From a virus: a DNA stretch of 43,013 nt. Below are positions 4,630 to 37,596 of this stretch, one piece after another. Under the pieces are notes generated by a model, which saw nothing but the letters and a program-made list of their open reading frames with translations, was not told where the DNA came from and searched no databases. Both the position numbers and the translations under genes were made by a program. The stretch is from the IMG/VR virus record IMGVR_UViG_3300042507_006786, positions 1 to 43,013 of that record; one strand, given 5' to 3'. Numbering within the stretch: position 1 is the stretch's first letter; the number at the start of each line of letters is the position of its first letter.

Positions 4630-4630
4630 C

Positions 4631-4999
4631 ATGCCGATCTACGTGTACAGCAACCCGGAGACGGGCGAGTCGGTTGAGCTCTCCATGACGATCTCGGAGA
4701 TGAACCGACGGCAGGACAAGGACAAGTCGATCGTCCACGAGGGCGTCAGGCTTGTCCGGAGCATCGCCGGAGAGCACCGTGGATTCCGGAACACGCCGGG
4801 ATCCTGGCCGATGAAGAGCGACGCGGCAGGCGTGCACCCTTCCCAGATCCGAGAGGCGTCCGAGGAGATGTCCAGGCTGGGAGTCCCGACTCGGTTCGAT
4901 TCAGACACCGGTCAGGCAATTTTTGAATCAAGAATGCATCGAAGGGCTTTCCTTCGTGCCAAGGGAATGTATGATCGAAACGGAGGTTATGGTGACTGA
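4631..4999 (+). CDS. FmdB-like small protein without zinc cysteines
   Basis: A 122-residue protein beginning MPIYVYSNPETGESVELSM, an opening like FmdB-family zinc-ribbon proteins (MPxYxY), except that no cysteines are present, so no zinc site can form. Proteins of this type occur between portal and scaffold genes in phages; their role is unknown. It starts one base after the portal stop, and its last 29 bases overlap the scaffold gene. The second half is helical and charged. The product is certain; the family link is moderate. Confidence 0.75.
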   Translation: MPIYVYSNPETGESVELSMTISEMNRRQDKDKSIVHEGVRLVRSIAGEHRGFRNTPGSWPMKSDAAGVHPSQIREASEEMSRLGVPTRFDSDTGQAIFESRMHRRAFLRAKGMYDRNGGYGD

Positions 5000-5858
5000 C
5001 ATGCGAGACGAAGGCGACGAACACATCCAGCAGGACGATCCGTTCGACATCGTTGACCCGATGACCGAGGACGAGACTGCACCCGAAGGCTCTTCGGAGC
5101 CAAGCTTGCTCGAGTCCACCGGAGAGCAGAACGACGCCAACTGGCAGTCGTCGCTCGTCTCGGCTGCACGCGAGAAGGGCCTTCCGCAGGAGCTGATCGA
5201 GCAGATCGAGGGCGCGTCCGACATGGCGGGCATCCTGTCGATCATCTCCGGCGTCGTCCAGAAGAACCAGGAAGTGTCGCAGCCGGAAGCAGGCCAATCG
5301 GCCTCCTCGAAGAGCGACGAAGCTGAATTCGACATCGAGATGGACGAGGAGTCTGCGTTCGACCCAGACGCCGTCCGCGCGATGCGACGCATGAACCAAC
5401 ACTACTCGAAGAAGATCCGCGAGCTTGAATCCAGGCTCTCCGATCGGAGCTCGAGGGACTCGCTTGGAACGACCTCCGAGTTCGTGAAGACGCTTGGTTC
5501 CGAATGGAACACCGTCTTCGGAACTTCGGAACGGCCGAATCCAGGCAACATCAAGATGCTTGAGGAGGCGGTGCAGACCATCCGTGCGGGTTATGCAGCG
5601 CGCCACAAGCGGCTTCCTGGAGAGCAGGAGGTCTTGAACATGGCTCTGAACACCGCGTTCGGATCCAAGGCAACTGAAATCGCACGCAACAAGATCAACG
5701 AAAAAGTCTCGAAGCGCTCTTCCCAGATCGTTTCCCGTCCCGGAACCCGGACTTCCTCTGCGCCGAACCCGCGAACGCGGGCGACCCAGGGAGTCGCGGA
5801 CTGGTTCAAGGCACGTGGAATCGATCCGTACGGCGCAAACGAAGACGCATTCCAGTGA
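4971..5858 (+). CDS. Scaffolding protein (probable)
   Basis: A 295-residue, strongly acidic N-terminal region (about 1-130, many Asp, Glu, Ser) followed by a helical, coiled-coil-like centre (about 135-165, NQHYSKKIRELESRL) and a basic C-terminus. It lies immediately before the major capsid gene. This composition and position are typical of scaffolds that guide prohead assembly and leave before packaging. I chose ATG 4971 because AAGGGA lies just upstream; ATG at 4989 and 5001 are alternatives. The C-terminal basic patch would bind the capsid protein, by analogy with other scaffolds. Confidence 0.8.
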   Translation: MIETEVMVTDMRDEGDEHIQQDDPFDIVDPMTEDETAPEGSSEPSLLESTGEQNDANWQSSLVSAAREKGLPQELIEQIEGASDMAGILSIISGVVQKNQEVSQPEAGQSASSKSDEAEFDIEMDEESAFDPDAVRAMRRMNQHYSKKIRELESRLSDRSSRDSLGTTSEFVKTLGSEWNTVFGTSERPNPGNIKMLEEAVQTIRAGYAARHKRLPGEQEVLNMALNTAFGSKATEIARNKINEKVSKRSSQIVSRPGTRTSSAPNPRTRATQGVADWFKARGIDPYGANEDAFQ

Positions 5859-5875
5859 AAGAAAGTGAGTGAATC

Positions 5876-6943
5876 ATGCCTATTCTCCAGGCAGAAGACA
5901 TCGCAGACCTGATCACGACCACCCAGCGCAACCTGGGCGAGATGAAGTGGACCGACCTCTCCTACTCGCTCCAGGAGCACATCGCTCTTCCCCAGCTCCT
6001 CAACAAGAACAAGGTTTCGTTTGTCAGCGGCACCGGCATCCAGTGGAACCTGATGATCGGAACCACCGGCGCGACGAAGGAAGTCGGCCTCTACGCGACC
6101 GACAGCGTGAACGTGTCCGACGTGATGATCACGGCAAACATCCCGTGGCGCCACATCAACGCCTCGTACGCCATCGAGCGCCGCGAGATCGCGATCAACC
6201 GTTCCCCGGCACAGATCGTCGACCTCGTGAAGATCCGACGCCACGACTGCATGACCGACATGGCTGGTTTCATGGAGACGCGCTTCTGGCGTCGTCCGTC
6301 CGGCACCTCGGACACCCTCTCGATCTACGGCGTGCCGTACTGGCTCACCTGGACCGACAATTCGTCGACCAACGTGAACGGTGGATTTGACGGCGGCAAT
6401 CCGACCGGTTTCAGCGCCGGCGCCGCGAACGTCGACTCAACCGTCTATTCGCGATGGACCAACTGGTGCGGCAAGTACACGGCGGTCACGAAGGACGACC
6501 TCATTGCCAAGTGGCGCCGTGCGTCTACCTTCACCAACTTCAAGCCGCCGGTCACCGCTCCGAGCTACCAGAACGGGAACATGTACGGCTACTACACGAA
6601 CTACAACGTGATCGGCCAGCTCGAGCGAATTCTCGAGACCCAGAACGACAACCTCGGAAACGACGTTGCGTCGAAGGACGGTCGCGTCACGTTCCGTCAG
6701 ACTCCGATCACCTGGTGCCCCCACCTCGAGGGACGCGCAGGCGATCCGATCTACGGCATCAACTGGGGCTCGTTCCGCCCGGTCTTCCTCTCCGGCGAGT
6801 ACATGCGCGAAGAGGGCCCGAGCAAGGCGAGCAACCAGCACACCGTCTTCGTCACCCACATCGACACCACCATGAATCTTCAGTGCACCAACCGCCGCGT
6901 GAACTTCGTTCTCGCGACCGCATCTCCTGACGTCTCGGCGTAA
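5876..6943 (+). CDS. Major capsid protein
   Basis: A 355-residue protein starting MPILQAEDIADLITTTQRNL, placed directly after the scaffold. It shows the expected features of an HK97-fold shell protein: an N-terminal helical arm, a central SFVSGTGIQWNLMIGTTGATK segment with E-loop character (about 48-66), and a C-terminal part ending in a TTMNLQCTNRRVNFVLA strand. The surface segment at about 160-195 is rich in Asn, Gly and Ser. It uses a high-expression style of codons. No cleavage site is evident. The identification rests on gene order and overall pattern. Confidence 0.9.
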   Translation: MPILQAEDIADLITTTQRNLGEMKWTDLSYSLQEHIALPQLLNKNKVSFVSGTGIQWNLMIGTTGATKEVGLYATDSVNVSDVMITANIPWRHINASYAIERREIAINRSPAQIVDLVKIRRHDCMTDMAGFMETRFWRRPSGTSDTLSIYGVPYWLTWTDNSSTNVNGGFDGGNPTGFSAGAANVDSTVYSRWTNWCGKYTAVTKDDLIAKWRRASTFTNFKPPVTAPSYQNGNMYGYYTNYNVIGQLERILETQNDNLGNDVASKDGRVTFRQTPITWCPHLEGRAGDPIYGINWGSFRPVFLSGEYMREEGPSKASNQHTVFVTHIDTTMNLQCTNRRVNFVLATASPDVSA

Positions 6944-7752: not shown

Positions 7753-7905
7753 TCATGACTTGTTCGAGATCGCAGATGCGGCGTGTATCGCCCAGGATGC
7801 CGCGTCGGTGACTGTTTTCAGTCCTTCCTGCTGCATGAGCGAGATCAGAAGGTCGTAGTCCGACTCCCTGATCCTGATGCTCTGCGTCGGCTCCTTGCGC
7901 CTCAT
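7753..7905 (-). CDS. Ribbon-helix-helix-like small protein
   Basis: A 50-residue protein, MRRKEPTQSIRIRESDYDLL followed by a helix containing a TVTDAASWAI segment. The order of one short polar strand (TQSIRIR), a helix, a turn (EGLKT) and a second helix matches Arc/MetJ-type ribbon-helix-helix DNA-binding proteins, which dimerise and bind palindromic sites through the strand. Its ATG overlaps the stop of the giant gene (ATGA), so it is probably translated from the same transcript. Its stop lies 3 bases from the terminator that contains palindrome copy 2. The fold is inferred from pattern; a role as regulator is a hypothesis. Confidence 0.7.
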   Translation of the reverse strand: MRRKEPTQSIRIRESDYDLLISLMQQEGLKTVTDAASWAIHAASAISNKS

Positions 7906-10900
7906 TCGTCGACCTCCGCCATGCCGTACTTGTCGATCATGTACTTGGCGAGCTCGTCGTTGAGCTGTCCGAGGCGGCGCTGGCGGGTGTCAAGCGTGCG
8001 GTCGTCGACCTTGCGCTTGATGCGCCGGCCGATGCTCGGGTCCTTCATGAGGCCCTTCATCGTGTACGGCATCGGCATCTCAGGGAACATGGCGTTCCAG
8101 TTGCGAATCTTCTGCTGCGCCTGCACGATCATCCCTGACGCGATCAGCGTTGCGATCTCGTCCTTGTAGGAATCGAGCGAGTCCTTCATGACGACGATCT
8201 TGTTGTACTCGAGGCTCTCGAGGCTTTCCTTGATCGTCCTGAAGCCCATTGCTCCACGGACCTGCTCGGCGACCGTCTTCCTGAACTTCAGGCGGCCCTG
8301 CATGTCGTAGTAGTCGGCTTCCTTGCCAGACAGGACTCCCATGAGGTTCTCCACCTGCTGGAAAGCAGGGGACGACGCGTACGCGGCGCCAGCGAGCTCT
8401 GTGAACCCGTTCTGGTAGACGGCGTCCTTCTGCGTGGCGGATCGGAACGCGTCGGAGAACGCAGACAGCGTCGGCCCTGCTGCGAAGTTCCCGATCATCT
8501 CGTAGACGGTTCGCCCGTACGGCTTCGGGAACAGGACGATCGAACCAGAGATGTCGACGCCGGCCGCAGCAGGAAGGCCCATTGTCACGACGTTGGCCCA
8601 TCCCTCGCCGAACTGCTCTCGCATTCCCTGGTAGATGTCGTAGCCAGCCGCCTTGTCCTCCTCGTCGGTCAAGTACCGAGCAAGCAGGTCGAACAGGAGG
8701 AAGACAGGAAGCCCCTTGACGCCGCCCATCAGGAGGAACGTGCTGGCCCAGCGGCCAAACATCATGCTCCTTGTGGTCGTCGACAGGAGCTCGTTCGTGC
8801 GCGGATCTCGAGCCCTGACGATGTTGTCGTAGGCAAGGCCGAACGACGAGAACATGAAGCGCTTGTACTGCAGGATCGTCGCCCTGGTCGGCCCACGGAA
8901 GGCGATCGGGTTGTTGGCCTTGCTGAACGAGAACTGGGTCTGGGCGACGCGGAGGAGCGCGTGGCGCGCGGCCTCGTTGTCGTCCATGCCGAGCTCTTCC
9001 TTGGCGTAGGTGTAGAAGGCGAAGAACGTGAAGTTCTGGTTCCTGCTTTCAGATCCGCTGATCGGGACCTTCTCAAAGATCTTCTTGATCCCGTCGTACG
9101 ACCTCGACAGCCATCCCGTTCCGCTCGTAAGCCTGAACTCGCGACCCTCGTACCATTCTCCGTTCGGCCGCAGGTAGCCGTACCGGGACATGATCTCCTT
9201 GCCTTCGCGTCCGTTGTACCGCTTCGCATAGCCGACGAACCGCTTGGCGCCGATGATCGGGAACACGGTCTGGAACGGCTGCATCGAGTTCACGACCTGC
9301 TGGCGAACCGTCATCAGCTGCCGGAAGACGTTGACGGCGCGGACCATCTGCAGCCATCTGCGCGTCGGCATTGGGCCGACCATCGTCCGGAGGCCGGGGA
9401 TGGATGCGATGAATCCATCGACGAACTGCTCGAAGTGGCTCTGCCTGAAGGTGGTCGTGTAGTCGAGGGTGTCCTGGAAGTGCGACGCCCACCCGACGAA
9501 TCCCTGGCGACGCAGGTCTTCGATCGACGCGGTCACGTTCCGGCGCATGCGGTTGAAGTACAGCCACTTGTAGTAGCCGGCAGTCTGCGCCTGCCATGCC
9601 CGCATGAAGTCCATGTCGAAGCCTTCCTTGCCGGTCCTCTGCAGGAGAGGGGCGTAGAAGCGCTGCTTGGCCTCGGTCTTTCCGATGCGTCCTCGAAGCA
9701 TCTCGCTGACCTGATGGCTCTCGAGGTCGGCCGCGTTCTGGATGCTCCTTCGGATCGCGGTGTACTGCTTGCCGCTGACGCGAACGACGTCCGGAGGAAC
9801 GTGGGTCTGGACCTTGATCTCGATCCTTCCGATGTCAGCCTTGTCGACTCCGGCCGGCGGATTGCGGCGGAAGGCAAGCAGCCTTCGAACCATCTCCGCC
9901 TCGGTGTTGGCCGTTGCGGTTCCTCCGTCCATCGAGACGGACCGCCTCGACTCCTTGAGCGCATCTTCCTTGCTCAGTCCACGCGCGATGGCGCTTCGGT
10001 ACGCCTTCTTGGAGTACCAGACGCCCTCGTACGACCCAAAGAACCCGTGGAAAGCGTGCGAGAACTTCTTGCCCCAGCTGTCAGGAACCATGATGTTCAC
10101 CAGGGCGGCCTTCGCCTCCTCGACGGTCATCATGTTCCCGGTGTCAGAGTCGACGATCATGGTGACGACGTCGCTTGGGAGAAGCCCAATCTGGACCCGT
10201 TCCGAGTACCAGTTCGATCCGTTCTCGTTTGCGATCGACAGGACCCTCGAGACCTTCATGTACCGAACCATCTCTCCTGCCGCGTCGCGCTTGGCACGGA
10301 TGATCCCCTGGCGCTGGACCTCATCGATCTTCTTGAACTCACGGAGGACGTCGATGACGTCGTCCGAAAGTCGGTTTCCGTTAGGGTCGACCCACTGGGA
10401 ATCGCTGTTCGGCTTGTTCGGGTCGTAGTAGCGGTCCATCAGGACGTAGAAGAGCTTTCCGTTGTCCTTCCGGTACTCGCGAGGAAGACGCGCGTACAGG
10501 TCCTTGCCCTGCTCCATCGCGCCCTCGGTGACCCTCGCTCGCTCCATGTCGCCTGCAACAAGCTCCTCGGCGATGTAGCGGACGGTGCGGTTGCTGGAAG
10601 CCCACGCCGACGTGATGAGAGGCATGAACCACCGGCGGAACATGCCGATGTCGCCCTTCTTCTTGTACTGGACGACCGGAACGTCGGACTTTGTCCCAAA
10701 GAACCGCCTGATCGATGCAAGGGCTCCGCCCTTCTGTTCCGCCTGCTCGAGCTCGGGAGGAAGCGGAACGTCCGACTCGGACTTGAACTCAACCTCAGCG
10801 TCGTCCTTTGGAGCGAGAGCGGCCGGGAAGCTGAGAACGCCGGTCCTTGGTTCTGGATCCGTCTCGCCCGGGATGTCACCGTCGTCAGGGAACAGGTTGT

Positions 10901-13900
10901 TGACGGCCCTCCGCTGCGCCTGCGCTACTTCTGGCGGGACATCTCCAAGTCGCTCTGCGATGGCTTCCGTCGATTCTGGGTATCCATCGGCAGGTTCGTC
11001 ACGTAGATCGATTGCTCGGTCTGAGTCGGATTCGATTCCAACTGACGCAGCAACGATTGCCTGAATTCCCCGTGGGCCTTTCTGTTGCCCTGGCCGGAGA
11101 TCAGAGAATGCATCCAAGCCTTCGCTTCCATTGGGAGCTCCTTCGATTCCAAGAGTGACCGCTTCGCCGTAGGTCGGCTCGACGGAGTTGTTGATGATGC
11201 CGCCGTTGTACAGCGACTCGAGCTTGTCCACCATCTGGTCGGTTCGAAGCTGCACGATCGCGTCGACAGACGCAATCGTCGACACCGAGGACCTGAAGGC
11301 GTTCTGGCGAACGGCAGGGTCGTTGTCGGCCATGTAGTGGATCCGAAGACCGGTCACCTGTCCCTGCTGGACAAAACCGGCATCGGAAGACCGTGGATCG
11401 AACTGCGGCTCGACATGCCACCCAGGGACGGAGGCGTTGATCTCCTCTGCCAGGGCGAGCGCCTGGGTCTGGCTCATCGGGTTCCGAAGCATGACCCTGA
11501 AGATCGGACGCGTGTTCTCCGTTTTCTGGCCGAACGGAATGGTTCGCACGATGGTGACGCGCTGGTTCGATCCGGACTTCTCGACGATGTCGGAGATCTC
11601 CGAATGGAATCGGTTTACGTCGAATCCCTGCTTCACGACGAGCGAGACGTTGATCGACCTCCCGTTCGAGGACGATGCATTCTTTCCGTAGTCGACCACG
11701 ACGACGTCGTCATCGTCCTTCAAGCGCTGAACGAGCGGCGAAATCAGCTCGCTGGATGGATCGACGTCCGATGGGATCTCGGCCTCGACCATCGCGATCC
11801 CCATCCGGTCGAATGCGCGCTCGAACGATCCGCCTGCTCCCTGCGAGGTTGTCCATCCGTTCGACGACCACAGGTCCTTCTCCATGAACCACATGAGAGC
11901 CTGCAGGTTCATCGGGGTCATCCCAAGCTCGGCGGCCGCCTCGTTCAGGATCGACTGGCCGAACTCGTATTCGCCCGTCGGCCTGTTGATGTCGCCGTCG
12001 AGAAGACGTCCCTGGACGGCAATCTCCGCGTAAGCGGGGATCCGCTTCTCTCCAAGGACGTTCCTGATGGCCCTTGCCATCCACAGGTCGATGGTCGCGT
12101 TCGTGCTGAATCCGGTCAGGTTCGAGTAGAAGGTGTGGACCTTGGGGCTGTTGACTCGCTGACCCCACAGGCCGGCCATCACGTTCAGCGCGGCCATCGA
12201 GTTCATTCCGAAGTTGCGCGGGAACGTGATGGTCGCTCCGTCGACGACGGACCCGTCCTCGTTGAATGCACCCGGGTTCTGGTTCCTCAGCATCGACATC
12301 CACTCGCCCATCGCCGTCTTCTGCATCTGCTCGTCGCCGTCGAAGTCGCTCTTCTTCGGCCCGTACTGCGACATCAGCTGCTCTGCGGTGAGGAAGACCT
12401 TCTTCTCCGGCATGACGACGTTGCCTTCCGAGTCCTCGTACGGCTCGGACGGGAACTTCTGCCCGTGGACCACGGTGATGGTCCTGAACGGCGTTGGTCC
12501 GTCGTACTTGTTCATGGCCGATCGCTGTGATCGAAGCATCTTCAGGACCGTGTCGTTCTTCGGCACGATCTTCTCGACCAGCGATTCGTTCTCCGACTCG
12601 ATCTGGGAAATACGAGAATCGATTTCGGTCTCGAGCCTCGAGATCTCGGCGATCCTCCCCTTGTCCGTGAACCAGTTGAAGTACTGCTCCAGGATGGCGT
12701 CGTACTCGCCGCGCGTGAACGCCTGGATGGCGTCCACCGCGTACGTGAAGTTGATGTCCGCAGGAGTCTGAGGGCTCAAGGCCGCGAGGAGCTCGGTGAA
12801 CATCCCCTGGTGGCGGCCGAAAGACCTGGACAGCCGGCCGAAGATGTTGTTGTACCACTTGTCCTGGGCGATGATGTACACGGAGCGCGGGTCGTTCTTC
12901 CCGCGAAGCTCGCGAACGCGGTCGACGATGTTCCTTGCCGCCTTCGATCGACGCTTCGAGAGACGCCGCTGGTTCCTCGATTCAGCTGCCTTCTTCGATT
13001 CCTTCGACATCCCGGACGTGCCTTCAAGCTGGCCCATCAGGCCCCATCCCACCTGCGACGTGGAGATGACGATCGATCCGTTCCTCTCGGAAATCGACTC
13101 GATGTCAGGAACTACCCAGCCGATGTCGCCGGATGCCCTGCGCGAGTTGGACGAGATAGTCTCTCCGAACATCGAGACGGCCCTGGAGGTGACCATGAAC
13201 TTGATGACGTTGACGAGCTGCGCGGACTCCTCCTTGTCCTTGATGCCGAGCGAGTCGATGAACTCCAGGATCTTTTCGCCGTGCTGCTGCGGCAGGCTCC
13301 CCTTGAACGACACGACTTCATCGACCTCTGCCGGGCGCATCGAGTTCGTGGACGAGATCAGCGAGTACACGGCGGTCTTCGACGCGTCTGAAAGCGACGC
13401 GAAGCCAGGCATTGATTCGACGACGTCCTTGCTGACGACGATCTCGCGGGCAGAAGGAGCCTGCGCCTGCAGCTTCTTCTTGTTCTGCATGAAGAAGTCT
13501 TCCATCTTCGGCTTCTTCCCTGTGGGGAATGCCTGGGAGATGGCTTCCTTGATCGCGCTCTTCGAGTAGTGCCACGTCATGCCGATCGAAACACCGGCCA
13601 GCGAGAGGTTCCACTTGCTCGTGACGGCTCGCGGGTTTTCCTTCACCGAAGCGATCGGACCGATTGCGGTCGAGTCGTCCTGGCCTGCGAGAAGCGCCAT
13701 AGACAGCTCAGGAGAAGATCCCTGCGGAACGTTCGTGTTGATGCGGAACTGTCCGCTGAGAAGCGGGCCGAACTTCTGGTTCGACTTCATGATGATCGAT
13801 GCAAGCTGCTCAATTCTGGCAACGGCCTCGCTCTTCGAGACGACTCCTTGCTTTCCCTTCTCTGAAAGGAACGTCTCTGCAAGTCCTGGATCCTTCATCT

Positions 13901-16900
13901 GGCGCTTGACATCGGCCCTCTTCGACTTGTCGAACAGCGACAGGAACTCAGATTCAAGCTCAGCGACCCGCTGGACATGGGCATCGTGCATCGCCCTCTG
14001 GTCGCTGTTCATCATGGAGACGGAGATTGCCGTCAGGGCTTTCTTTGCGGATGCGATCGCGCTTGCGATCACCCGCATGATGGTCTCGTACATGGTGGAT
14101 GCGTGCGAGTCGTCGAGAACAATCGTTCCGTTCTTGATCTTCCTGACGACGTCAGAAAGAGCCTCATGAAGCGCTTCTGGATCGGCAGCCACCATTGCCG
14201 TGACCTGCTCGAGGAACCTGACAAGAACCTCCTGGTGAATTCCTTCTCCAAGATCGGGGTTTGCCTCGTAGCCGTCCCTGCGAAGCAGCTCCGCGATTGG
14301 ACCGAAAATCGCGGAAGCAGCCTTTGGATCCTCTTGCTGAAGCTTCTGCAGGAACGACCGCGAAGTTTCGTATTGAGCTCTTCGGTTGTCGCCGGACTTG
14401 GTCAGGAGAACGTGCCACACTTCGTGGTAGACCACTGCGGCGAATGTTCGAAGAGAGAACTGTCGGCTCCTGTCTCGAGCAAGTTCATCGTTCACGGTGA
14501 CGAATTCGACCTTGACGCGACGCTCGTTCTTTCCAAGCGGCAGCCTGTTGTCCGGAATGGTCTTCCATCTCTTCGATCCATCGGTCATGGAAACCTGGAC
14601 CTGACGGAAGATCATCGGGTATCCGCCATAAGCCCTTCCAATGGCTCCCGTGTCGCCTGGAGCAAACAAGACGAGCACGCCGTTCGAAGCGGCGAATCTC
14701 ACGATGTCGGCGGCGCGATCTCCGTACTTTTTCGCAGCAGCAAGTGGGCTCAGGAACTTGCTGGACTGCAGAATTGGGAGAAATTCGGCTGTGAAGAGCC
14801 TTGGATCAAGATGCCGCCATCCAAGGTTCATGTTGATTGGCTGTCTGGCATCCGCAAGGTCGCTGTAGATGTCCTCGATGGTTTCCTGGTCCGTGACCGG
14901 GATCCCATCGTTGCGCAGGCGCTCCGACTCCTCTGGAGTCATCTTTTCAGCAGTGGCAGCAATGACCGGGAAGTCTCCGAGGTTCGCGCCGTCGCCTTCC
15001 TGGATCTTTCCGGCAAACTTGCGCAGGTTGCCGGTGATGACGAAGTTCTTGCCGGTGAACGCGGCGTCGCTGCCTGAGTCGAGCTCGTCGATCAGTCGAT
15101 CTTCGGTCCAGATCTCGATGCCTCGGGCCTTTGCGTCTTCGATCTTTGCCTGTCCTGGTTCATCGCCGACAACAAGGATGTTCGTCTTGCCGGAGATCCC
15201 GGTCGTGACGACGCCTCCCATGCCGTTGATCGAACCAGTCGCCTCTGCCCTGCCCGCCTGTTCCGGCTTGCGGAACGTGGTGCGGACGGTCTTCTTCGGC
15301 TCAGCTGGCTTCTCTGCGGCAGGCTTCTCCTTGGAAGGAGCCTTGGCAGGAGCAGCTGGCGCTGGCGCCGCCTCCTTCTGCGCAAGGTAATTCTGCATCA
15401 TCTGGTCGATAAAGCTGATTGAACCATTGAGCTCTTTTGTAGTTTTGTTCCGTTCCAGCAATTGCCGAACCGGAGCTTCGAAAGCTTCAAGAAGACTGAG
15501 GAATCGATCTGCATCGGCCTTTGATTGCTTGATAGCAAACCTAGCTAGTTCTTCAACGATAAAGTCGTTGTTCGGCGTTGCAAGATTGGCTTTCAGGGCA
15601 TTCTGCAAATCCTCTTTGAGAGTCTTCTGATTTTGATTTGGACTAAGCCACGCAGGACGCTGGGTCCCTAGAGACTCAAAATTTGGATCTGGCCGTGCCT
15701 CTGGCAACGACCAATCTTCCTCGCCATCGGACTCTTCGTCCGTTTCTTCATCTGCCGCTTTGTTCTTGGCGGGTTTCTTTGCAGCCTTGGCCTCTTCCTT
15801 CTTGGAAGTCTTGGCTTCTTCCTTCTTTGCAGGTTTGGCTGCCTCTTCCTTTGCTTCAAAACCAGCAGGGAATCTATCGATTCCAAATTGCTTGGCAATC
15901 TGATCGTCAGTCAGCTGCTTCTCTTCAATGCGTTTCGACTTTGGCTGATCCCAAATACGGTACTTTGGAGAAAATGGATCGTTGGATCCATAAACGCGTT
16001 CAGTGATTGTGGAAACTGCATATCCATCTGCTGCTGCTCGTTTCACTTCCCGGGCAACTTCAGACGCTGCTACTTCTGCACTTCCTGCCAGACGCCAGCT
16101 TTGTTGAGATTCTTCCCATTTCATCCATCGAATTTTGTAGGTTGAAGCCTTGTGCGGGTAACTTTTAGCCGCAGTCTTTGCTTCTTCCGCCGGCTTTGCC
16201 TTCTCCGCAGCCTTGGCCTCTTCCTTCTTGGAAGTCTTGGCTGCCTTTTCCTTTTTCGTAGGCTTGGCTGCAATATCTGGCGATCGCTTGGAAGCAGCCT
16301 TGTAGGCTTCAGCTTCCTGTTCGGCAAACTGCAATCCCGACTCTACAGTGTCAAACCTGTGGGACTCGACAAATTTGTCATTCTCGTCATAAATATTACG
16401 AGCAAGAGAGATTTCGATTCGTTCGCTAGGTTCCTTGCGTGATCGAATTTTGTCGATCAGGAAAGGAAGACCGTACGCGGCAATGTCGTTTAGAGAAACA
16501 TGCTGGCCTCCACCTGCATGCTGAGTCTTTGATTTGCCTTCGTAAAGCGTGTAGCTGATGACATATGAAACGGTTTGCGTTGAGGATGGCTTTGAAGGCG
16601 CGGTCTTCTCCGCAGGCTTGGCCTTCTCCGCAGGCTTGGCCTTCTCGGCAGGCTTGGCCTTCTCGGCAGGCTTGGCTGCTTCCTCCTTCTTCTTGGCTTC
16701 GGCCTGTCGAGCTTCCTCCTTGGCCTTCTTCTCTGCCTGCTGCTTCTCCTGCTTGGCATTTCGCTCCGCATCGGTCTTTGCCTTGAGAGCAGCGCGCTCC
16801 TCGGCGCGCTTCTTCTCTGCGGCCTGGCGAATCTCTTCCCTCTTCGATCGCTCGATGCTCTTTGCCTCCGCCCGCTTTCGGCGCTCCTCGGCAATCTTTG

Positions 16901-19900
16901 CCTCTCCCTCGGCCTGCTTCTTCTTTCGCGCCTCAATTGCATCCTCGTCTACTGCAAGCCCTTCCCTTGCCTTGAGCGAGACGTAGTCCTCGATCAGGGT
17001 CGGGCGAGAGGTTCCGAGCGGACGACCGTCGGTCAGCTGGCTGGTTCGAAGCTCGAGCCGCTTGCGCTCGCTCTCCGAAAGCGGCTTGCCTCTCTTGACA
17101 GGAGAGACCTCTGGAAGCGGCTCCGGAGCCCATGCACGGGTTGCCCGGCGCTTGCGGTCCTCGATGTCGTCGATCTTCTCCTGGCGGGACTCGCGCTCGC
17201 GGCCAGGACGTGCAATGGCAAGTTCTTTCTTGAGGCGCTTGAGCTCCCGCTCTTCGAATGGAGACACCGGCTGCAGCGTGTCCGCAGGACGCTCCTCCGG
17301 CTTCATCTTCGGAGCAGGCGCCGGCTTCTCTGCCTTCGGAGCGGGCGCAGGCTTTTCCTTCGGCTTGACGCCCTCACGGGCTTTCAGGGCCTTGTACTCG
17401 TCCTGCCACTTCCGCTTGCGCTCTGGATCAGAATCGATGCTGCCGCTGTTCAGCCGATCCTCGAGATCAGCCATCCTGGTCTTCTCCCAGTCCTTGAGCG
17501 GGCCCTTGCCCTCGGCCGCAGCGATCTCGCTTGCGCTTGGAACAGGAAGCGGATCAGGGGTGTACGTTCCGGTGCTCCTCGACCTGCGCTCCAGGGATGC
17601 GATCTTCGCGGAGATCCTGTTCTTCGCATCCTCGTCCTTTGCGGACTTCAGAGACTCGCGGAGCTTCTCGAGAATGCTCTTTTCGTACGGACTGAGAGGA
17701 GCCAGCGTTTCGTCGGCGACTCCGTAGATCTTCCGGACGGCAAGGTTCTCGCGCTCCTTCAGCATCGACTGAAGGTCCTTGCCCTTTGGCCTCTTCGCCT
17801 CGTCCTCAAGCAGGGCGTCGATTTCCTCGAGCCGAGACTCTTCCTTCGGAGTCAGCGCGACGGGAGCCTCTGCAGGCTTCTTGGTGATGCCGTCCTTGTC
17901 AGCCGCAAGACGAAGCTGTGCAACGAATGCAGCGCGCTTCTTCGGGTCGGAGAGGATCGCGTCCATCTCCTTTGCGATGGTCGGGTTTGGAAACAGGCGA
18001 AGCAGGTTTGCCTTGGAGATCGCAAGCCCTGGCGTGGCAAGGATCATCTGGACTGCGGTGCGGTTCTTGGAAACAAGAAGCCCAAGCTGCCCTTCGTCTC
18101 CGGCAGCCACCTTCGTTCCATCGATCGCGTCGTTGTCGATCTTGATGGGCTCCTTGGTCTTTCGATCGACCAGCGGGATCCCATCCATCGGGGTGCGCGA
18201 CACCTTGCCTGCTCCAGCAGCAGGCTCGGCCGGCTTCTCTTCGGCTGGAGCAGCTTCTGGAGCTGGCGGCTTTTCAATCTTCACCGCATCGCTTGGTACC
18301 TTGAGGCCGCGACGCTTCAGCTCGGCAATCGCATCCTCTGGGCGAACTCTCAGGTTCTTTTTCTTTCCAGACTTGGTTTCGACATCGGTCGCGTCGCCGA
18401 CACGCTTTCCGCGCGCGGCGGCGACTAGCTGTTCCTCCGAAAGGTCGGTTGGATTTCCTGCAAGGAACTCGCCTCTGGATTCCAGGCCAGCCTCAAACGC
18501 AGACCAGGCGGCTTCCCTGCTCTTCAGGTCGTGCTTGAACCTGGACAATTCCGTTGCACGAACGGCAAGACCGCCGATGCCGCCGCCGCCGACGCCGCCA
18601 AGGAAGTTTGCAAGCACGCCGCGCCAGGCTTCAGAACGAACCTTCTCATCGTCACTTGTGAGCTGATTGATGAGGTACTCGCGCTTCAGCGGATCTTCGC
18701 CTCCGGCGCGCCAGGCAGCGATCTGCACAAGGTTTCCGAGAGCGTCTTCTGAAATCTCCTGGATGCCTTCGGCGGTTCCGCCGGCAGCAATGCGACGGAT
18801 GAGCTCCGTGCTCTTGCTCAGCTTCCGGACCGATGCGGCAACGGCAGCCCTTGAAAGCGTGTTCGCCGCAGCTTGCTCTGCCTTCCCAAAGATCGCTCCG
18901 GCCGGGATTTTCTGCAGGACCATCGACGAGATGCCGTAGAGAGAGCCGTCGACCGCTCCGATCGCCCGCGCGGACTCTTCGTCGAAGCCGTTTGCAAGAG
19001 CCTGACGGTACGACTGGTCGTAAGCCCCGCCTGCCGCCTGGGCCGCCGCCGATCCCATGAAAACTGCAGGTGCCGCCGCGCCGCCAGTCGCCAACGACAG
19101 GCCGATCGCAACTCCAACCTGTCCGATTCCGTCTCCGATCGCGTTTACGGTCTGCGCAAGCTCGTTGGTCGTTCCAGTCATTTCCTGACGGGCGTATTCA
19201 ATGGCGCCAGACAGGTTGTTGAAAAAGGTAGATACGCCCTCTCCCGTGGTTCCTCGGTCGAATCCGAAGATGTCCTCTGACCACGCCTCAAGTCCCGATC
19301 CAACCATCGCGCCAAAGCCAGAGAAAGCCTTGACGGCCCCCGCAATGCCGGAGAACGGAGAAAGAAGGACCGATCGAACTCCGCTTGCACCTCCGGTTGC
19401 CTGGATCGACTGAGCCTGCTGCTCGAGCTTCCTGTTCATCCATGCGCCGAACTCGCCGCGCTCGATTGCCTTTTCCTGCTCGATCCTCGATCGAACAGCC
19501 TTGCGGAGATCAAGGATCCCGATGATGCCCTGCTGTTCCTTTGAAAGCGAGGAGACCTTGCGGGTCTTGCTGACGAAGTCGTCCTCCCACCAGAACGGAT
19601 TGCTGACCGTTTCTGTATCCCAGATGTCCTTGGACCTTTCGTCCTCAAGCTGCTTTTGCTTGGCGATCGCGGCCTGCACCAGCTTCGGTGGAGCGGACAG
19701 CATCTGGCTCGTTGGAGCGTACTTCTTCGCCACTTCGTCGTACGAAAGACGCGAGTCGACTCCGCCGACAGCGGACTGCATGTTCTTGATCCATGCGTTT
19801 GCGTCGACAGATCGAGCTGTTCCTCCGATCGAAGAAGCGTCCTGCCGGCGCTGGTAGATCCCCTGGGTTTCCTGAAGCTTCTGGTCGGCGACAGATCCCT

Positions 19901-20114
19901 GCCGGCTTCTCTCTCCGATGGCAGCGACAGCCTGGTCGAGCTTCTGCATCGCAGCGCGAGGGTCGTATCCCTGAGCCGTGGTGTCGATCCCGGTATCTGC
20001 TGCAGATTGAACCAAAGATGAAAGGCTGTCCTGGGACGCTTCTTCAATGGGAACCTGCCCGGGAATCTGGCCCTGATTTCCAATAGGAACCTGGTTTGGA
20101 TCGATCATGCTCAT
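7902..20114 (-). CDS. Giant polyvalent virion protein with BRCT and HExxH segments
   Basis: A 4,070-residue protein, 28 % of the window. Visible parts: Gln-rich start; Gly/Ala-rich hydrophobic region (about 220-520); Lys/Glu/Ala-rich low-complexity region (about 620-1,570); a BRCT-like domain around NILVVGD (1,645-1,651) and a second partial one starting FTGKNFVITGNL (1,686); a zinc-protease motif HEVWH (1,897-1,901); a segment with LSPQT (2,446) and ATIDLWMARA (2,673) like a stand-alone phage domain (DUF7178-like, from memory); and a helical C-terminus (about 3,400-4,000) resembling large polyvalent-protein-associated domains. Such proteins are thought to be ejected with DNA. Start: ATG 20,114 after AAGGTG; GTG at 20,123 overlapping the upstream stop is possible. 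No transglycosylase motif was seen. Confidence 0.85.
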   Translation of the reverse strand: MSMIDPNQVPIGNQGQIPGQVPIEEASQDSLSSLVQSAADTGIDTTAQGYDPRAAMQKLDQAVAAIGERSRQGSVADQKLQETQGIYQRRQDASSIGGTARSVDANAWIKNMQSAVGGVDSRLSYDEVAKKYAPTSQMLSAPPKLVQAAIAKQKQLEDERSKDIWDTETVSNPFWWEDDFVSKTRKVSSLSKEQQGIIGILDLRKAVRSRIEQEKAIERGEFGAWMNRKLEQQAQSIQATGGASGVRSVLLSPFSGIAGAVKAFSGFGAMVGSGLEAWSEDIFGFDRGTTGEGVSTFFNNLSGAIEYARQEMTGTTNELAQTVNAIGDGIGQVGVAIGLSLATGGAAAPAVFMGSAAAQAAGGAYDQSYRQALANGFDEESARAIGAVDGSLYGISSMVLQKIPAGAIFGKAEQAAANTLSRAAVAASVRKLSKSTELIRRIAAGGTAEGIQEISEDALGNLVQIAAWRAGGEDPLKREYLINQLTSDDEKVRSEAWRGVLANFLGGVGGGGIGGLAVRATELSRFKHDLKSREAAWSAFEAGLESRGEFLAGNPTDLSEEQLVAAARGKRVGDATDVETKSGKKKNLRVRPEDAIAELKRRGLKVPSDAVKIEKPPAPEAAPAEEKPAEPAAGAGKVSRTPMDGIPLVDRKTKEPIKIDNDAIDGTKVAAGDEGQLGLLVSKNRTAVQMILATPGLAISKANLLRLFPNPTIAKEMDAILSDPKKRAAFVAQLRLAADKDGITKKPAEAPVALTPKEESRLEEIDALLEDEAKRPKGKDLQSMLKERENLAVRKIYGVADETLAPLSPYEKSILEKLRESLKSAKDEDAKNRISAKIASLERRSRSTGTYTPDPLPVPSASEIAAAEGKGPLKDWEKTRMADLEDRLNSGSIDSDPERKRKWQDEYKALKAREGVKPKEKPAPAPKAEKPAPAPKMKPEERPADTLQPVSPFEERELKRLKKELAIARPGRERESRQEKIDDIEDRKRRATRAWAPEPLPEVSPVKRGKPLSESERKRLELRTSQLTDGRPLGTSRPTLIEDYVSLKAREGLAVDEDAIEARKKKQAEGEAKIAEERRKRAEAKSIERSKREEIRQAAEKKRAEERAALKAKTDAERNAKQEKQQAEKKAKEEARQAEAKKKEEAAKPAEKAKPAEKAKPAEKAKPAEKTAPSKPSSTQTVSYVISYTLYEGKSKTQHAGGGQHVSLNDIAAYGLPFLIDKIRSRKEPSERIEISLARNIYDENDKFVESHRFDTVESGLQFAEQEAEAYKAASKRSPDIAAKPTKKEKAAKTSKKEEAKAAEKAKPAEEAKTAAKSYPHKASTYKIRWMKWEESQQSWRLAGSAEVAASEVAREVKRAAADGYAVSTITERVYGSNDPFSPKYRIWDQPKSKRIEEKQLTDDQIAKQFGIDRFPAGFEAKEEAAKPAKKEEAKTSKKEEAKAAKKPAKNKAADEETDEESDGEEDWSLPEARPDPNFESLGTQRPAWLSPNQNQKTLKEDLQNALKANLATPNNDFIVEELARFAIKQSKADADRFLSLLEAFEAPVRQLLERNKTTKELNGSISFIDQMMQNYLAQKEAAPAPAAPAKAPSKEKPAAEKPAEPKKTVRTTFRKPEQAGRAEATGSINGMGGVVTTGISGKTNILVVGDEPGQAKIEDAKARGIEIWTEDRLIDELDSGSDAAFTGKNFVITGNLRKFAGKIQEGDGANLGDFPVIAATAEKMTPEESERLRNDGIPVTDQETIEDIYSDLADARQPINMNLGWRHLDPRLFTAEFLPILQSSKFLSPLAAAKKYGDRAADIVRFAASNGVLVLFAPGDTGAIGRAYGGYPMIFRQVQVSMTDGSKRWKTIPDNRLPLGKNERRVKVEFVTVNDELARDRSRQFSLRTFAAVVYHEVWHVLLTKSGDNRRAQYETSRSFLQKLQQEDPKAASAIFGPIAELLRRDGYEANPDLGEGIHQEVLVRFLEQVTAMVAADPEALHEALSDVVRKIKNGTIVLDDSHASTMYETIMRVIASAIASAKKALTAISVSMMNSDQRAMHDAHVQRVAELESEFLSLFDKSKRADVKRQMKDPGLAETFLSEKGKQGVVSKSEAVARIEQLASIIMKSNQKFGPLLSGQFRINTNVPQGSSPELSMALLAGQDDSTAIGPIASVKENPRAVTSKWNLSLAGVSIGMTWHYSKSAIKEAISQAFPTGKKPKMEDFFMQNKKKLQAQAPSAREIVVSKDVVESMPGFASLSDASKTAVYSLISSTNSMRPAEVDEVVSFKGSLPQQHGEKILEFIDSLGIKDKEESAQLVNVIKFMVTSRAVSMFGETISSNSRRASGDIGWVVPDIESISERNGSIVISTSQVGWGLMGQLEGTSGMSKESKKAAESRNQRRLSKRRSKAARNIVDRVRELRGKNDPRSVYIIAQDKWYNNIFGRLSRSFGRHQGMFTELLAALSPQTPADINFTYAVDAIQAFTRGEYDAILEQYFNWFTDKGRIAEISRLETEIDSRISQIESENESLVEKIVPKNDTVLKMLRSQRSAMNKYDGPTPFRTITVVHGQKFPSEPYEDSEGNVVMPEKKVFLTAEQLMSQYGPKKSDFDGDEQMQKTAMGEWMSMLRNQNPGAFNEDGSVVDGATITFPRNFGMNSMAALNVMAGLWGQRVNSPKVHTFYSNLTGFSTNATIDLWMARAIRNVLGEKRIPAYAEIAVQGRLLDGDINRPTGEYEFGQSILNEAAAELGMTPMNLQALMWFMEKDLWSSNGWTTSQGAGGSFERAFDRMGIAMVEAEIPSDVDPSSELISPLVQRLKDDDDVVVVDYGKNASSSNGRSINVSLVVKQGFDVNRFHSEISDIVEKSGSNQRVTIVRTIPFGQKTENTRPIFRVMLRNPMSQTQALALAEEINASVPGWHVEPQFDPRSSDAGFVQQGQVTGLRIHYMADNDPAVRQNAFRSSVSTIASVDAIVQLRTDQMVDKLESLYNGGIINNSVEPTYGEAVTLGIEGAPNGSEGLDAFSDLRPGQQKGPRGIQAIVAASVGIESDSDRAIDLRDEPADGYPESTEAIAERLGDVPPEVAQAQRRAVNNLFPDDGDIPGETDPEPRTGVLSFPAALAPKDDAEVEFKSESDVPLPPELEQAEQKGGALASIRRFFGTKSDVPVVQYKKKGDIGMFRRWFMPLITSAWASSNRTVRYIAEELVAGDMERARVTEGAMEQGKDLYARLPREYRKDNGKLFYVLMDRYYDPNKPNSDSQWVDPNGNRLSDDVIDVLREFKKIDEVQRQGIIRAKRDAAGEMVRYMKVSRVLSIANENGSNWYSERVQIGLLPSDVVTMIVDSDTGNMMTVEEAKAALVNIMVPDSWGKKFSHAFHGFFGSYEGVWYSKKAYRSAIARGLSKEDALKESRRSVSMDGGTATANTEAEMVRRLLAFRRNPPAGVDKADIGRIEIKVQTHVPPDVVRVSGKQYTAIRRSIQNAADLESHQVSEMLRGRIGKTEAKQRFYAPLLQRTGKEGFDMDFMRAWQAQTAGYYKWLYFNRMRRNVTASIEDLRRQGFVGWASHFQDTLDYTTTFRQSHFEQFVDGFIASIPGLRTMVGPMPTRRWLQMVRAVNVFRQLMTVRQQVVNSMQPFQTVFPIIGAKRFVGYAKRYNGREGKEIMSRYGYLRPNGEWYEGREFRLTSGTGWLSRSYDGIKKIFEKVPISGSESRNQNFTFFAFYTYAKEELGMDDNEAARHALLRVAQTQFSFSKANNPIAFRGPTRATILQYKRFMFSSFGLAYDNIVRARDPRTNELLSTTTRSMMFGRWASTFLLMGGVKGLPVFLLFDLLARYLTDEEDKAAGYDIYQGMREQFGEGWANVVTMGLPAAAGVDISGSIVLFPKPYGRTVYEMIGNFAAGPTLSAFSDAFRSATQKDAVYQNGFTELAGAAYASSPAFQQVENLMGVLSGKEADYYDMQGRLKFRKTVAEQVRGAMGFRTIKESLESLEYNKIVVMKDSLDSYKDEIATLIASGMIVQAQQKIRNWNAMFPEMPMPYTMKGLMKDPSIGRRIKRKVDDRTLDTRQRRLGQLNDELAKYMIDKYGMAEVDE
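16606..16677 (-). repeat. Four tandem 18-bp coding repeats (AEKAKP)
   Basis: Four contiguous 18-base units differing at one or two positions, each encoding AEKAKP in the leftward frame, at about residues 1,146-1,170 of the giant protein. They belong to a longer Lys/Glu/Ala/Pro-rich linker. The repeat length is a multiple of three, so copy-number change would keep the frame. Confidence 0.9.
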
Positions 20115-20119
20115 GTTGT

Positions 20120-22735
20120 TCACCTTGCAGAAGGCTTCTTGGGCATCTCGTTCATGTTTGCGGCGTTACGAGCTTCAGATTCAGTCTTTCTGCCTTGCCG
20201 TTGCGTATCGGCCGTCTTCTGCTCATCAGCAAGCTTTTCTTGACGCAGTTTACCAGCCATGTTTGCTGGAACTTTTTGCTTCGTTCGCTCGTTGTAGAAC
20301 GTGCTTCTGTAATCACCAAACCTGGAATCTGGATTTTCGCGAGACCAACTGTTGATCTTGGCCTGGATCTCGGCCATGACCTTGTTTCTGATCTCGTCGT
20401 TTGTTGCCTGGCCTGAAGACCTGTTCACCATGTCCTCGACAAGAGCGTTGATCCTGTCCCACCGGTTCCACTTTCCTGGACCCTTCCCAGGGCTCATTCC
20501 ATCAAATTCGCCTCCAGCGCCAAAGGCTCCGACCTTGTTGGCGAGATCGGTTTCTTCGGCAACAACTTCGTTCAAGATCGATTCCACTGCAGTGTTCACG
20601 GCACGATCGACCTTTGGGCGCATCTCGTACACCTTGTCCGGATCGTCCAAGTACGCAATGTCTCGCATGGCTTCCGAGAATGCCTTGGAAGTCTTGGCAG
20701 TGACCTCCATGCGACGTCCTTCAAACGTGTTCCCTCTTGAGGTATTGGAGATTTCCGCGATCCTAGATCCCTTTGACTGGTCTCTTGCAAAACCAGTGCT
20801 GGCAAACCCTGGGGCTCCATCTGGGTTCTCGCCGTTCGTGTCGATCTTGTACCCGAGAGAATGGGCGATGTACATCGACATCAGTGCCTTCGCTGGAGTG
20901 TTGAGCTCGCCGTAGAAGGATCCGACGACCTTCATCAGCGCCTCCTGCTTCGGTGACAGGTTCGATGGATCCCATTCCTCGTCGATAGTCTGGTACTTCT
21001 GCAGGGTGTCTGCAAACGCATTCCAGTCCTCGGGGTTGCGCGCCCGGATCTTCCCGAGCTCCTTTCCAAACGACTGCCGCACGCTGTCTGGGAGCGAGAA
21101 GTCCTGCAGGTCGATCGTCTCGGAGTTGAACGGAAGCATTCTGATCTGCTTGCCGTCCTTCTGCGAAGTGATGTTCTGGAACGGAGTGTCGGTCTCGAGG
21201 TCCGCAAGCTGGCGCGGACCGACAGGAGCGGCGACCATCTCTCCGTTCTGATTTCGAACAGCAGGGATGTCCACATCGCTTCCCCTTCGGCGAATGACCG
21301 AGGTTCCATACGTTCCCTGTCGAACGCGGTACCTGTTGGTGTCGACCGGAGGCTTGGCCTTGTCTTCCTGGCCGATTCCGAACATCTCTCCAAGAGACTT
21401 CTTCTGCTGGTTCTGCAATTCGTATGTGCGCTTGAAAGCTGAAAGGCGAGCCTGTGACAGGTCGACCTGGATTCCCTCTGCCTGAATCGCCTGCAGCGCT
21501 GCGACAGGATCTGTCTGCAGCATCGCCTGGATCGACGCTCGCTTCTCTGGGTCTGCAACCTGAGACATCGCCTGGACAATCTGCTCGCGCTCCTCCGGAG
21601 ACGCTCCTTCTTCCGCCTTCTTGTCCCACTTCTGGAACTGAGAGAACAGCTCTTCCTGGTCCGGAACCTGCTGTTCACCTGACGACTGTCCGGACATGGA
21701 CGACTTGGACGAGCGTCCTCGACCTGACGATCCTCCACCGACCGTCTCTACCTTGCCGCTGTTGGCGTCGATGTACTGCGTGCCCTCTGGAAGGGAATCA
21801 ATCTCGACCTGGTCTGCAGTGACAGGGAGAAGCATTCCGTTCGGACCCCTTGCCGCCTGCATGATGTCGCCAGTCTCGGGATTGCGAAGTGCATTCCCTC
21901 CGATTGGCTCAAGTCCCACTGGCTGAACGTCTGCGAACTCCTCCGGAGGAGGGGCGTCGTATCCGAAGGTGCTGTTGGTGAACTCGCGGCCCTGTTGGAA
22001 TCCGGTCTGGATCTCCTGCGCTCTCTGCGAGATTCTTTCAAGAGCCTGCGCTCGCTGTTCTGGCGAGAACCTAGGGTCCATCATCACGTTTTGCGCGGAC
22101 TTCTGGAGGTTTTCGGCTTCCTTGCGGTACGCGTCTTCTGTGAATCCCTTGAACTGACCGATCTTCCTGTCAATGGCCCCGAACCTTCCGCCCTGGAGAT
22201 CCAGGTTGTAGGCATCGGCTTGTTCCTGGCTCACGGGTCCTGGCATGTTGTCCGGAGACGCAGGCCGGCTTGGGTCGTAAGGCGCCTGGGCCTGCGGGGC
22301 CATGCCTGGAATCTGCGGCATGGGAGCCTTCTGCGTCGGCATCCTCATCATGTCAGGGCCAGCCTGATTCATTGGTGCCGAAGAAGGCTGCCCGGACTGA
22401 GCCATGAAGTCGCTTGGAGCTGGTCCCGAATTCTGAGCATCGCGCATTCCACGATACGAAGACAGCGAAGGATTCTGCTGCCTGAACTGCTGCGACATCT
22501 CCGCCATGTTCCGTGGAATGCGAATGTTCGTCCCAGTTGCAAAGGTTCCGCCCTCGGTCTGGGTGAATCCTCCGGCCTGAGATCCAGGAGCAGGCTTTGG
22601 AGCCTTCGGCTGGCCTGGAGGAAGGGATGGCGGCGTGGACGAACCCGGAGCCTTCCAGTTGCCTGGCAGCGGCGGGTTGTTCGGGTTGACCGGAGGCTTC
22701 CAGTCTTTCGGCAATGGAGAATTAGCTTGCTGCAT
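20120..22735 (-). CDS. Large internal virion protein candidate
   Basis: An 871-residue protein directly upstream of the giant gene, whose start it overlaps or nearly overlaps. The N-terminal 60 residues are Pro-rich (WKPPVNPNNPPLPGNW), then about 60-230 is Gln/Met/Pro-rich and probably disordered. The remainder is charged and helical with no domain I recognise. Its pairing with a giant polyvalent protein in a short-tailed phage suggests a core or ejected protein. The start is ATG 22,735, preceded by GAGGACC; a GTG at 22,756 lies inside the palindrome and is unlikely. The palindrome at 22,748 would therefore lie in the leader. Confidence 0.75.
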   Translation of the reverse strand: MQQANSPLPKDWKPPVNPNNPPLPGNWKAPGSSTPPSLPPGQPKAPKPAPGSQAGGFTQTEGGTFATGTNIRIPRNMAEMSQQFRQQNPSLSSYRGMRDAQNSGPAPSDFMAQSGQPSSAPMNQAGPDMMRMPTQKAPMPQIPGMAPQAQAPYDPSRPASPDNMPGPVSQEQADAYNLDLQGGRFGAIDRKIGQFKGFTEDAYRKEAENLQKSAQNVMMDPRFSPEQRAQALERISQRAQEIQTGFQQGREFTNSTFGYDAPPPEEFADVQPVGLEPIGGNALRNPETGDIMQAARGPNGMLLPVTADQVEIDSLPEGTQYIDANSGKVETVGGGSSGRGRSSKSSMSGQSSGEQQVPDQEELFSQFQKWDKKAEEGASPEEREQIVQAMSQVADPEKRASIQAMLQTDPVAALQAIQAEGIQVDLSQARLSAFKRTYELQNQQKKSLGEMFGIGQEDKAKPPVDTNRYRVRQGTYGTSVIRRRGSDVDIPAVRNQNGEMVAAPVGPRQLADLETDTPFQNITSQKDGKQIRMLPFNSETIDLQDFSLPDSVRQSFGKELGKIRARNPEDWNAFADTLQKYQTIDEEWDPSNLSPKQEALMKVVGSFYGELNTPAKALMSMYIAHSLGYKIDTNGENPDGAPGFASTGFARDQSKGSRIAEISNTSRGNTFEGRRMEVTAKTSKAFSEAMRDIAYLDDPDKVYEMRPKVDRAVNTAVESILNEVVAEETDLANKVGAFGAGGEFDGMSPGKGPGKWNRWDRINALVEDMVNRSSGQATNDEIRNKVMAEIQAKINSWSRENPDSRFGDYRSTFYNERTKQKVPANMAGKLRQEKLADEQKTADTQRQGRKTESEARNAANMNEMPKKPSAR

Positions 22736-26168: not shown

Positions 26169-26171
26169 TGG

Positions 26172-33873: not shown

Positions 33874-33874
33874 C

Positions 33875-37587: not shown

Positions 37588-37596
37588 GTGTCCTCC

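Follow-up and report, generated by a model that had tools for sequence, protein, structure and literature searches.

This locus raises the question of what kind of protein a virus would encode in a gene that fills more than a quarter of its genome, and what such a protein would do in infection. The window analysed here is a linear IMG/VR virus record of 43,013 bp, whose minus strand carries a single uninterrupted ORF (7902-20114) of 4,070 aa, counted from an in-frame ATG at 20114; a GTG start at 20123 would extend it to 4,073 aa (7902-20123). The gene takes up 28.4 % of the record, in agreement with the 4,070 residues and about 28 % given by a first-pass annotation. The IMG/VR relatives L001-L005 and L017 encode proteins that run co-linear with it, the largest reaching 4,200 aa, with blocks 42-71 % identical and the gene order unchanged, and the ORF is thus not a chance one.

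Genes for virion components adjoin the giant gene. A head module on the plus strand (1343..6943), convergent with it, comprises the terminase large subunit (1343-2884, plus), an SU10-type portal (2941-4629, plus) and the major capsid protein (5876-6943, plus), and this order of head genes followed by the convergent giant gene is preserved in syntenic relatives. On the other side, a gene of 871 aa on the minus strand (20120..22735) shares a 4-bp overlap with the giant gene and stays adjacent to it in relatives; its product is a candidate partner virion or ejection protein. A tblastn survey of 50,697 phage records gave no match to the portal, to the first 2,874 aa of the giant protein or to its DUF7178 region, described below.

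Conservation along the giant protein is uneven. An N-terminal block reaching to residue 1056 (16956..20114, minus) is 42-45 % identical in L002, L004 and L005, and includes a Gly/Ala-rich hydrophobic stretch (residues ~ 200-570; 18414-19526, minus). This stretch and the Ala/Lys/Glu-rich charged linker that follows it (residues ~ 570-1590) had both been described previously and are indeed present. The segment between residues 1057 and 1790 (14754..16955, minus), which holds charged linker and a BRCT domain, is not conserved even between phages with capsid proteins 89-93 % identical. Conservation is highest in the C-terminus (residues ~ 2850-4073; 7905..11576, minus; 56-65 % identical in relatives), which includes a divergent PLxRFG / tail-700 domain at residues 3691-4019 (8067..9053, minus). 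The giant protein resembles the PLxRFG giants in size and matches their model NF032893 in this domain (E 2.1e-16, model positions 312-651 of 681), but its 59.6 bits stay under the curated cut-off of 100. The domain was detected in 8/8 proteins, the giant protein included; Pseudomonas phage 8P has it too, in a protein of 5,145 aa labelled “structural protein”. The 8P protein was also considered as a carrier of DUF7178 and was ruled out, being devoid of this domain. A PLxRFG protein of 495 kDa is known in Klebsiella Lastavirus phages (PMC9505181).

Downstream of the variable segment, residues 1790-2060 (13944..14756, minus) form a zincin-like region around the sole HExxH of the giant protein, the previously noted HEVWH at residues 1900-1904 (14412-14426, minus). 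The HExWH pattern is conserved in all five proteins that cover it, as HEVWH in the giant protein, HEMWH in three relatives and HESWH in one, and H1900, H1904 and E1965 are aligned in the same five; Glu1965 is a candidate third zinc ligand. As for the proposed metalloprotease, the motif and its conservation support a zincin-like metallopeptidase region, while the region has no match in Pfam or NCBIfam.

Taken with the PLxRFG-like C-terminus, the adjoining head genes and the ART-PolyVal, Kinase-PolyVal, GNAT, LPD22 and LPD38 domains of relatives that carry DUF7178, the zincin-like motif supports assignment of the giant protein to the phage polyvalent proteins, as the first-pass annotation had proposed. 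Several unrelated domains are joined in one polypeptide: BRCT, zincin-like HExxH with a Glu, DUF7178 and the PLxRFG-like C-terminus. Polyvalent proteins are likewise giant and multidomain, with a zincin-like motif and genes located beside late or virion genes (Iyer et al. 2017, PMC5512222), and the ART, kinase, GNAT and LPD domains of the relatives add to the likeness. The giant protein differs in its BRCT and OGG-type glycosylase-like domains, neither word being found in the main text of that survey. Another comparable system is the virion RNA polymerase gp50 of phage N4 (Schitoviridae), an ejected beads-on-a-string virion enzyme of ~ 3,500 residues (PMC12633501) whose C-terminal part likewise contains a zincin-like region (PMC5512222); its payload, however, is an RNA polymerase, and the searches performed here gave no sequence match between the two.

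The BRCT domain, of NAD-ligase/RFC1 type, lies at residues 1597-1681 (15081..15335, minus). Pfam PF00533 matches residues 1625-1679 (E 4.5e-6, 27.2 bits) above its curated cut-off of 21.3, the region taken alone matches BRCT structures of RFC1 and LigA (E ~ 1e-6), and PHROG ligase families are matched as well. The sequence core is the same as in the BRCT of the NAD+-dependent DNA ligase LigA and of RFC1, but in the giant protein no ligase or clamp loader is attached and the first strand is displaced: a region resembling strand beta-1, AFTGKNFVITGNLRK (about residues 1684-1700; 15024..15074, minus), is placed after the remainder of the domain. Not significant when searched alone, this region resembles what a permuted BRCT domain, or a relic of a second one, might leave. 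Domains in the plural had been annotated previously; one stands, while residues ~ 1675-1762 alone gave no phmmer match to any PDB entry at E ≤ 10. That a BRCT would be unusual in a polyvalent protein is borne out by the survey mentioned above and by its absence from all 36 related virus records in which it was sought; a search for the segment in other phages gave no relatives either. Occurrence in this phage and in none of those records, together with a first strand seemingly gone from its normal place, would suit a passive and roleless remnant left by recombination with a ligase gene, an explanation compatible with any other reading of the protein. We nevertheless consider it rather doubtful, given that the frame is intact across 4,070 codons and that the core motifs GG..V, KTN-LVVG and EDRLIDEL are well preserved.

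A further domain, DUF7178 (residues ~ 2380-2800; 11724..12986, minus), was missing from the first-pass list of domains. The DUF7178 model is matched by 25/25 aligned modules, and the domain is retained in all relatives of the giant protein. Elsewhere it is found in bins of Burkholderiales, Verrucomicrobiota and one archaeon as well as in giant phage proteins, nearly all of these proteins having HExxH, while in bacterial genomes it is rare (1/299 in one phylum). Solo DUF7178-like homologues, Mycobacterium phage MK4 gp76 and Rhodococcus phage Francesca gp5, are annotated as “glycosylase”; they differ from the domain of the giant protein in being stand-alone genes of 191-209 aa, and have the same catalytic and pocket residues. 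In Francesca, the solo version adjoins a gene for an Lsr2-like DNA-bridging protein. Phmmer matches of Francesca gp5 to WD-40 proteins were rejected as spurious, since they fall outside the catalytic region and no single stretch passes. A literature search found no mention of DUF7178, and we know of no experiment on the giant protein or on any DUF7178 protein.

Alignment of 30 homologues disclosed an invariant Lys-18-Asp pair, with the same spacing as in E. coli Nth. Bifunctional HhH-GPD enzymes rely on a Lys and an Asp for catalysis, and Lys2661 and Asp2679 are the putative equivalents in the giant protein. Trp243 of CacOGG1 is located two residues past the Asp. The DUF7178 Trp at this distance (Trp2681, putatively on the phosphate side) corresponds to it, and the invariant Gln-x3-Trp (Gln2741 and Trp2745, putative pocket residues) corresponds to the residues that contact 8-oxoG and stack on it, Gln315-x3-Phe319 in OGG1 and Asp-x3-Trp in OGG2/AGOG (PMC3397491).

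Profile alignment of DUF7178 with archaeal OGG2, a family identified through PDB 3fhf/3knt (E 2e-38), is collinear, with Lys, Asp and Trp in register. Its score of 27.1 exceeds the best of 200 column shuffles (23.9; 0/200 as good), and again 0/200 shuffles were as good after the solo homologues were added; the positive control, OGG2 against Nth, scored 36.8. At the same time, the hhalign probability was only 5-8 %, and in the first test a control with the Nth alignment reversed scored 23.7, while a single column shuffle out of 100 reached 26.4. HMM searches disclosed no significant link between DUF7178 and known glycosylases: the profile had only chance-level matches in the PDB, where one version of it picked up AGOG at E 1.9 and the other did not, and Pfam HhH-GPD PF00730 and AGOG PF09171 had none in the window up to E 10. 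In addition, no GxG precedes the Lys in the DUF7178 alignment, so the canonical hairpin, present in the OGG2 family, is not conserved in sequence, the hairpin of AGOG being itself unusual (PMC3397491).

The AlphaFold model of a compact homologue, L028 (pLDDT 87.1), points in the same direction as the profile alignment. Lys182 stands at the start of a helix whose successor is capped by Asp200, and the top Foldseek match among 350,542 PDB chains is 3knt, the 8-oxoguanine glycosylase of M. jannaschii (MjaOgg; probability 0.95, E 0.3, TM 0.35/0.49), followed in probability by AGOG 1xqp (0.30) and endonuclease III 4uob (0.20), with the other rows shown at ≤ 0.09. The model of the giant protein’s own domain, with an insertion of ~ 120 aa (pLDDT 76.6), gave no fold match. 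Predicted fold, Lys and Asp, the stacking Trp position and the order of elements are shared with OGG2/AGOG (PDB 3knt, 3fhf, 1xqp; PMC3397491), from which DUF7178 differs as part of a giant phage protein, in a pocket Gln, as in OGG1, in place of Asp, in the non-canonical hairpin, and in the ~ 120-aa insertion of the giant protein’s subfamily.

Each of the statistics that tie DUF7178 to glycosylases is weak individually, as would be expected if it were an unrelated all-helical domain with a convergent or accidental Lys-18-Asp, and the giant protein simply a zincin-bearing ejection protein of PLxRFG type. Such an origin is improbable, because motif, profile register, fold ranking and the “glycosylase” label given by others point to one family, and the matched residues cover catalytic and base-stacking positions. 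An OGG-type helix-hairpin-helix (HhH-GPD) fold is the strongly favoured prediction for DUF7178. The domain might have become a non-catalytic, DNA-binding part of an internal virion protein: enzyme folds can serve structurally in virion proteins, the hairpin sequence is degenerate, and the solo version of Francesca has its DNA-bridging neighbour. Invariance of Lys and Asp in all homologues examined makes this loss of catalysis improbable.

As the probable reading, we propose that the giant gene of this tailed phage encodes an internal virion polyvalent protein of PLxRFG type that delivers an OGG-type glycosylase/AP-lyase. The conserved N- and C-terminal blocks would pack and deliver the protein, which would enter the host together with the DNA; the gene neighbourhood and the “structural protein” label in phage 8P suggest such packaging. 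The zincin-like region would then free parts of the protein by self-processing. DUF7178, the core payload, would act as an HhH DNA glycosylase/AP-lyase on DNA upon entry; purines that have been oxidised or altered in some other way would be its most likely targets. BRCT is the kind of domain that binds DNA ends, and here, inserted in the exchangeable middle segment, it could keep the payload in place at nicks, at 5' ends or on ligase-type partners. The earlier suggestion that the protein protects or handles injected DNA is plausible, and is strengthened by the OGG-like glycosylase domain.

Hosts generally own 8-oxoG repair, so a repair role would bring little obvious gain. The injected glycosylase could instead be a weapon against the DNA of the host or of a competitor, from which it would excise modified or normal bases so that abasic sites or nicks remain. 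Activities of polyvalent proteins are mostly host-directed (PMC5512222), and on the bacterial side there are precedents in Brig1, a defence glycosylase that attacks modified DNA (PMC11078745), and in base-excision restriction enzymes (PMC10273834). Still, the pocket has the Gln/Asp-x3-aromatic arrangement of OGG enzymes, DUF7178 is retained unswapped in all relatives, as expected of a core function, and the phage DNA would itself be exposed unless it lacked the substrate; we hold an attacking role to be unlikely.

The proposal of delivered base excision offers a testable function for the Pfam family DUF7178. Closely related phages swap the middle of the giant protein and retain the capsid and the delivery and glycosylase-like parts, so functions specific to a host or a defence may lie in the exchanged part. 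Tentatively, and with somewhat more reserve than for the reading proposed above, tailed phages may bring into the host a ready base-excision enzyme that forms part of a giant, self-processing virion protein. In this phage the enzyme would be joined to a BRCT domain that binds nicks or ends, and it would mend an oxidised incoming genome or attack modified DNA of the cell. If true, DNA base excision would be one more activity delivered by phages from their virions.

The minus strand carries one uninterrupted frame at positions 7902-20123, of 4,073 codons counted from a GTG, and an in-frame ATG three codons downstream gives the single protein of 4,070 residues (7902-20114) proposed in the first-pass annotation. 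Since the virus contig is linear and 43,013 bp long, the giant gene accounts for 28% of the record. The neighbouring head module is on the plus strand, tail-to-tail to the giant gene, and includes the terminase large subunit (phrog_2, E 9e-19), an SU10-type portal (PF23899, E 2.5e-7) and the major capsid protein (phrog_9953, E 6.7e-9). An 871-aa gene (20120-22735) is located upstream with a 4-bp overlap. Its product, a candidate partner ejection or tail protein, matched no family. Elsewhere in the window, a 1,012-aa frame with a TTG start (23215-26253) is 57-59% identical in relatives across most of its length and is thus probably the real gene, rather than the shorter frame (25326-26168) chosen by codon score in the same region. 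Positions 32709-38655 comprise a recombination/replication module with primase/helicase-like, SF2 helicase, RecT-like annealing and exonuclease proteins.

At least six relatives were found in IMG/VR (L001-L005 and L017). As far as their contigs extend, they keep the gene order TerS-TerL-portal-capsid-small gene-giant gene-871-aa gene, and their 871-aa neighbour is 35-39% identical. In the giant protein, identity is 42-45% in the N-terminal block (residues 1-1056), and downstream of residue 1790 it climbs from about 20-25% to 75-87% near residues 3500-3600. Residues 1057-1790 show no conservation, the corresponding segment being 338 to 744 aa long in the four proteins complete there. The capsid proteins of these relatives are 89-93% identical to that of the window, so the middle is swapped between otherwise close phages.

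Among the records examined, only the window phage has a BRCT domain, which sits in this middle segment. The domain exceeds the Pfam cut-off (27.2 against 21.3 bits), matches LigA families in PHROGs and NCBIfam, and resembles RFC1 and LigA BRCT structures (E ~1e-6). It was absent from all 36 related virus records searched, and a pattern scan of the relatives detected it in none. BRCT domains of RFC1 and ligase are positioned at DNA ends or nicks. The match begins at helix 1. A strand-1-like motif, AFTGKNFVITGNLRK, comes after the domain and not ahead of it (window 15024-15335), which may reflect circular permutation, or remains of a second BRCT in a degenerate tandem. Because the downstream half alone gave zero matches, the plural of the first-pass annotation is not upheld.

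Near the C-terminus, residues 3691-4019 match NCBIfam NF032893 (“tail-700, PLxRFG”) with E 2.1e-16, yet under its curated cut-off of 100 bits, as do all eight alignment members. This region also matches a protein of Pseudomonas phage 8P that is 5,145 aa long and labelled “structural protein”. Giant PLxRFG proteins are known in several phages, e.g. Lastavirus (495 kDa; PMC9505181).

One further domain was found, Pfam DUF7178 (“family of unknown function”; residues ~2380-2800, 37.1 bits, cut-off 27), matched by all 25 aligned modules. Thirty homologues have in common the motif PK[TV]xxFxxNLxGxxxxATID[VL]WAAR, which contains an invariant Lys and, 18 residues on, an invariant Asp. Ahead of the motif lies a turn rich in serine and threonine (window: LSPQTP), and behind it a shared LQALMWFxEK. 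The Lys-Asp spacing is that of helix-hairpin-helix (HhH-GPD) DNA glycosylases, e.g. E. coli Nth, and a glycosylase relationship was therefore tested against a profile of 30 archaeal OGG2 proteins (8-oxoguanine DNA glycosylases), their identity anchored by PDB 3fhf and 3knt (E 2e-38 and 5e-38). The two profiles are collinear across ~190-210 columns, with Lys, Asp and a C-terminal Trp each in register. Their score of 27.1-27.6 compares with a column-shuffle mean of 14 and was reached by no shuffle in runs of 200 and 100 (maximum of the latter 26.4), nor in 200 with solo homologues included; the positive control, OGG2-Nth, scored 36.8. An invariant Gln and, four residues on, the invariant Trp match Gln315 and Phe319 in human OGG1 and the Asp and Trp in OGG2 and AGOG; these residues contact 8-oxoguanine and stack on the base (PMC3397491).

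The structure model of a compact homologue (L028; pLDDT 87.1, pTM 0.83), in which the Lys begins one helix and the Asp caps the next, has M. jannaschii OGG as its top PDB match (3knt; probability 0.95, E 0.3, TM 0.49 by target). Among the matches listed, only Pa-AGOG (1xqp) and endonuclease III (4uob) also exceeded a probability of 0.1. The window version of the domain contains an insertion of ~120 aa; its model was poorer (pLDDT 76.6) and had no match in the fold search. In BFVD, the fold turns up in further phage proteins, several of which carry polyvalent-type annotations (ART-PolyVal-like, RelA/SpoT, N-acetyltransferase). Solo homologues of mycobacteriophages and rhodococcal phages (191-209 aa) keep the same residues and have been annotated by others as “glycosylase”. 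Profile, model, pocket and annotation are individually weak lines, and taken together they make an HhH-GPD DNA glycosylase fold very probable. For tests of glycosylase activity, two cultured actinophages offer convenient stand-alone proteins resembling DUF7178: MK4 gp76 (L104:1650-2225) and Francesca gp5 (L103:2273-2902).

DUF7178 alone also disclosed another giant phage protein (4,096 aa; L035:2331-14618). One polyvalent protein combines it with Kinase-PolyVal and GNAT (L036:738-9578). It occurs in one of 299 bacterial genomes, within a 3,606-aa open frame that is probably a prophage (L071, G235:C12:266710-267198).

The HEVWH protease motif of the first-pass annotation holds at motif level: it is the sole HExxH of the protein (residues 1900-1904), and the four relatives covering the site have HEMWH (three) or HESWH (one). 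A Glu 61 residues downstream (E1965 in the window, within E-x2-VR) is aligned in all five proteins, and HExxH is present in nearly all distant DUF7178 proteins. By these residues the region is zincin-like. In polyvalent proteins, such peptidases are proposed to divide the chain, once it has entered, into its functional units (PMC5512222).

The giant protein would be kept inside the capsid and would traverse the tail as small domains strung in a row, on the model put forward for N4 gp50 (PMC12633501). Its zincin-like part would cleave it, and the predicted glycosylase would act on DNA on entry. The OGG-like pocket favours oxidised purines of the incoming genome as the putative substrate; the main rival, drawn by analogy with the bacterial defence enzyme Brig1 (PMC11078745), is attack on modified DNA. 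The BRCT domain would be an addition particular to the window phage. The initial observation is confirmed and its interpretation, in which BRCT suggested protection or handling of injected DNA, partly supported; the giant protein is a variant of the polyvalent-protein class.
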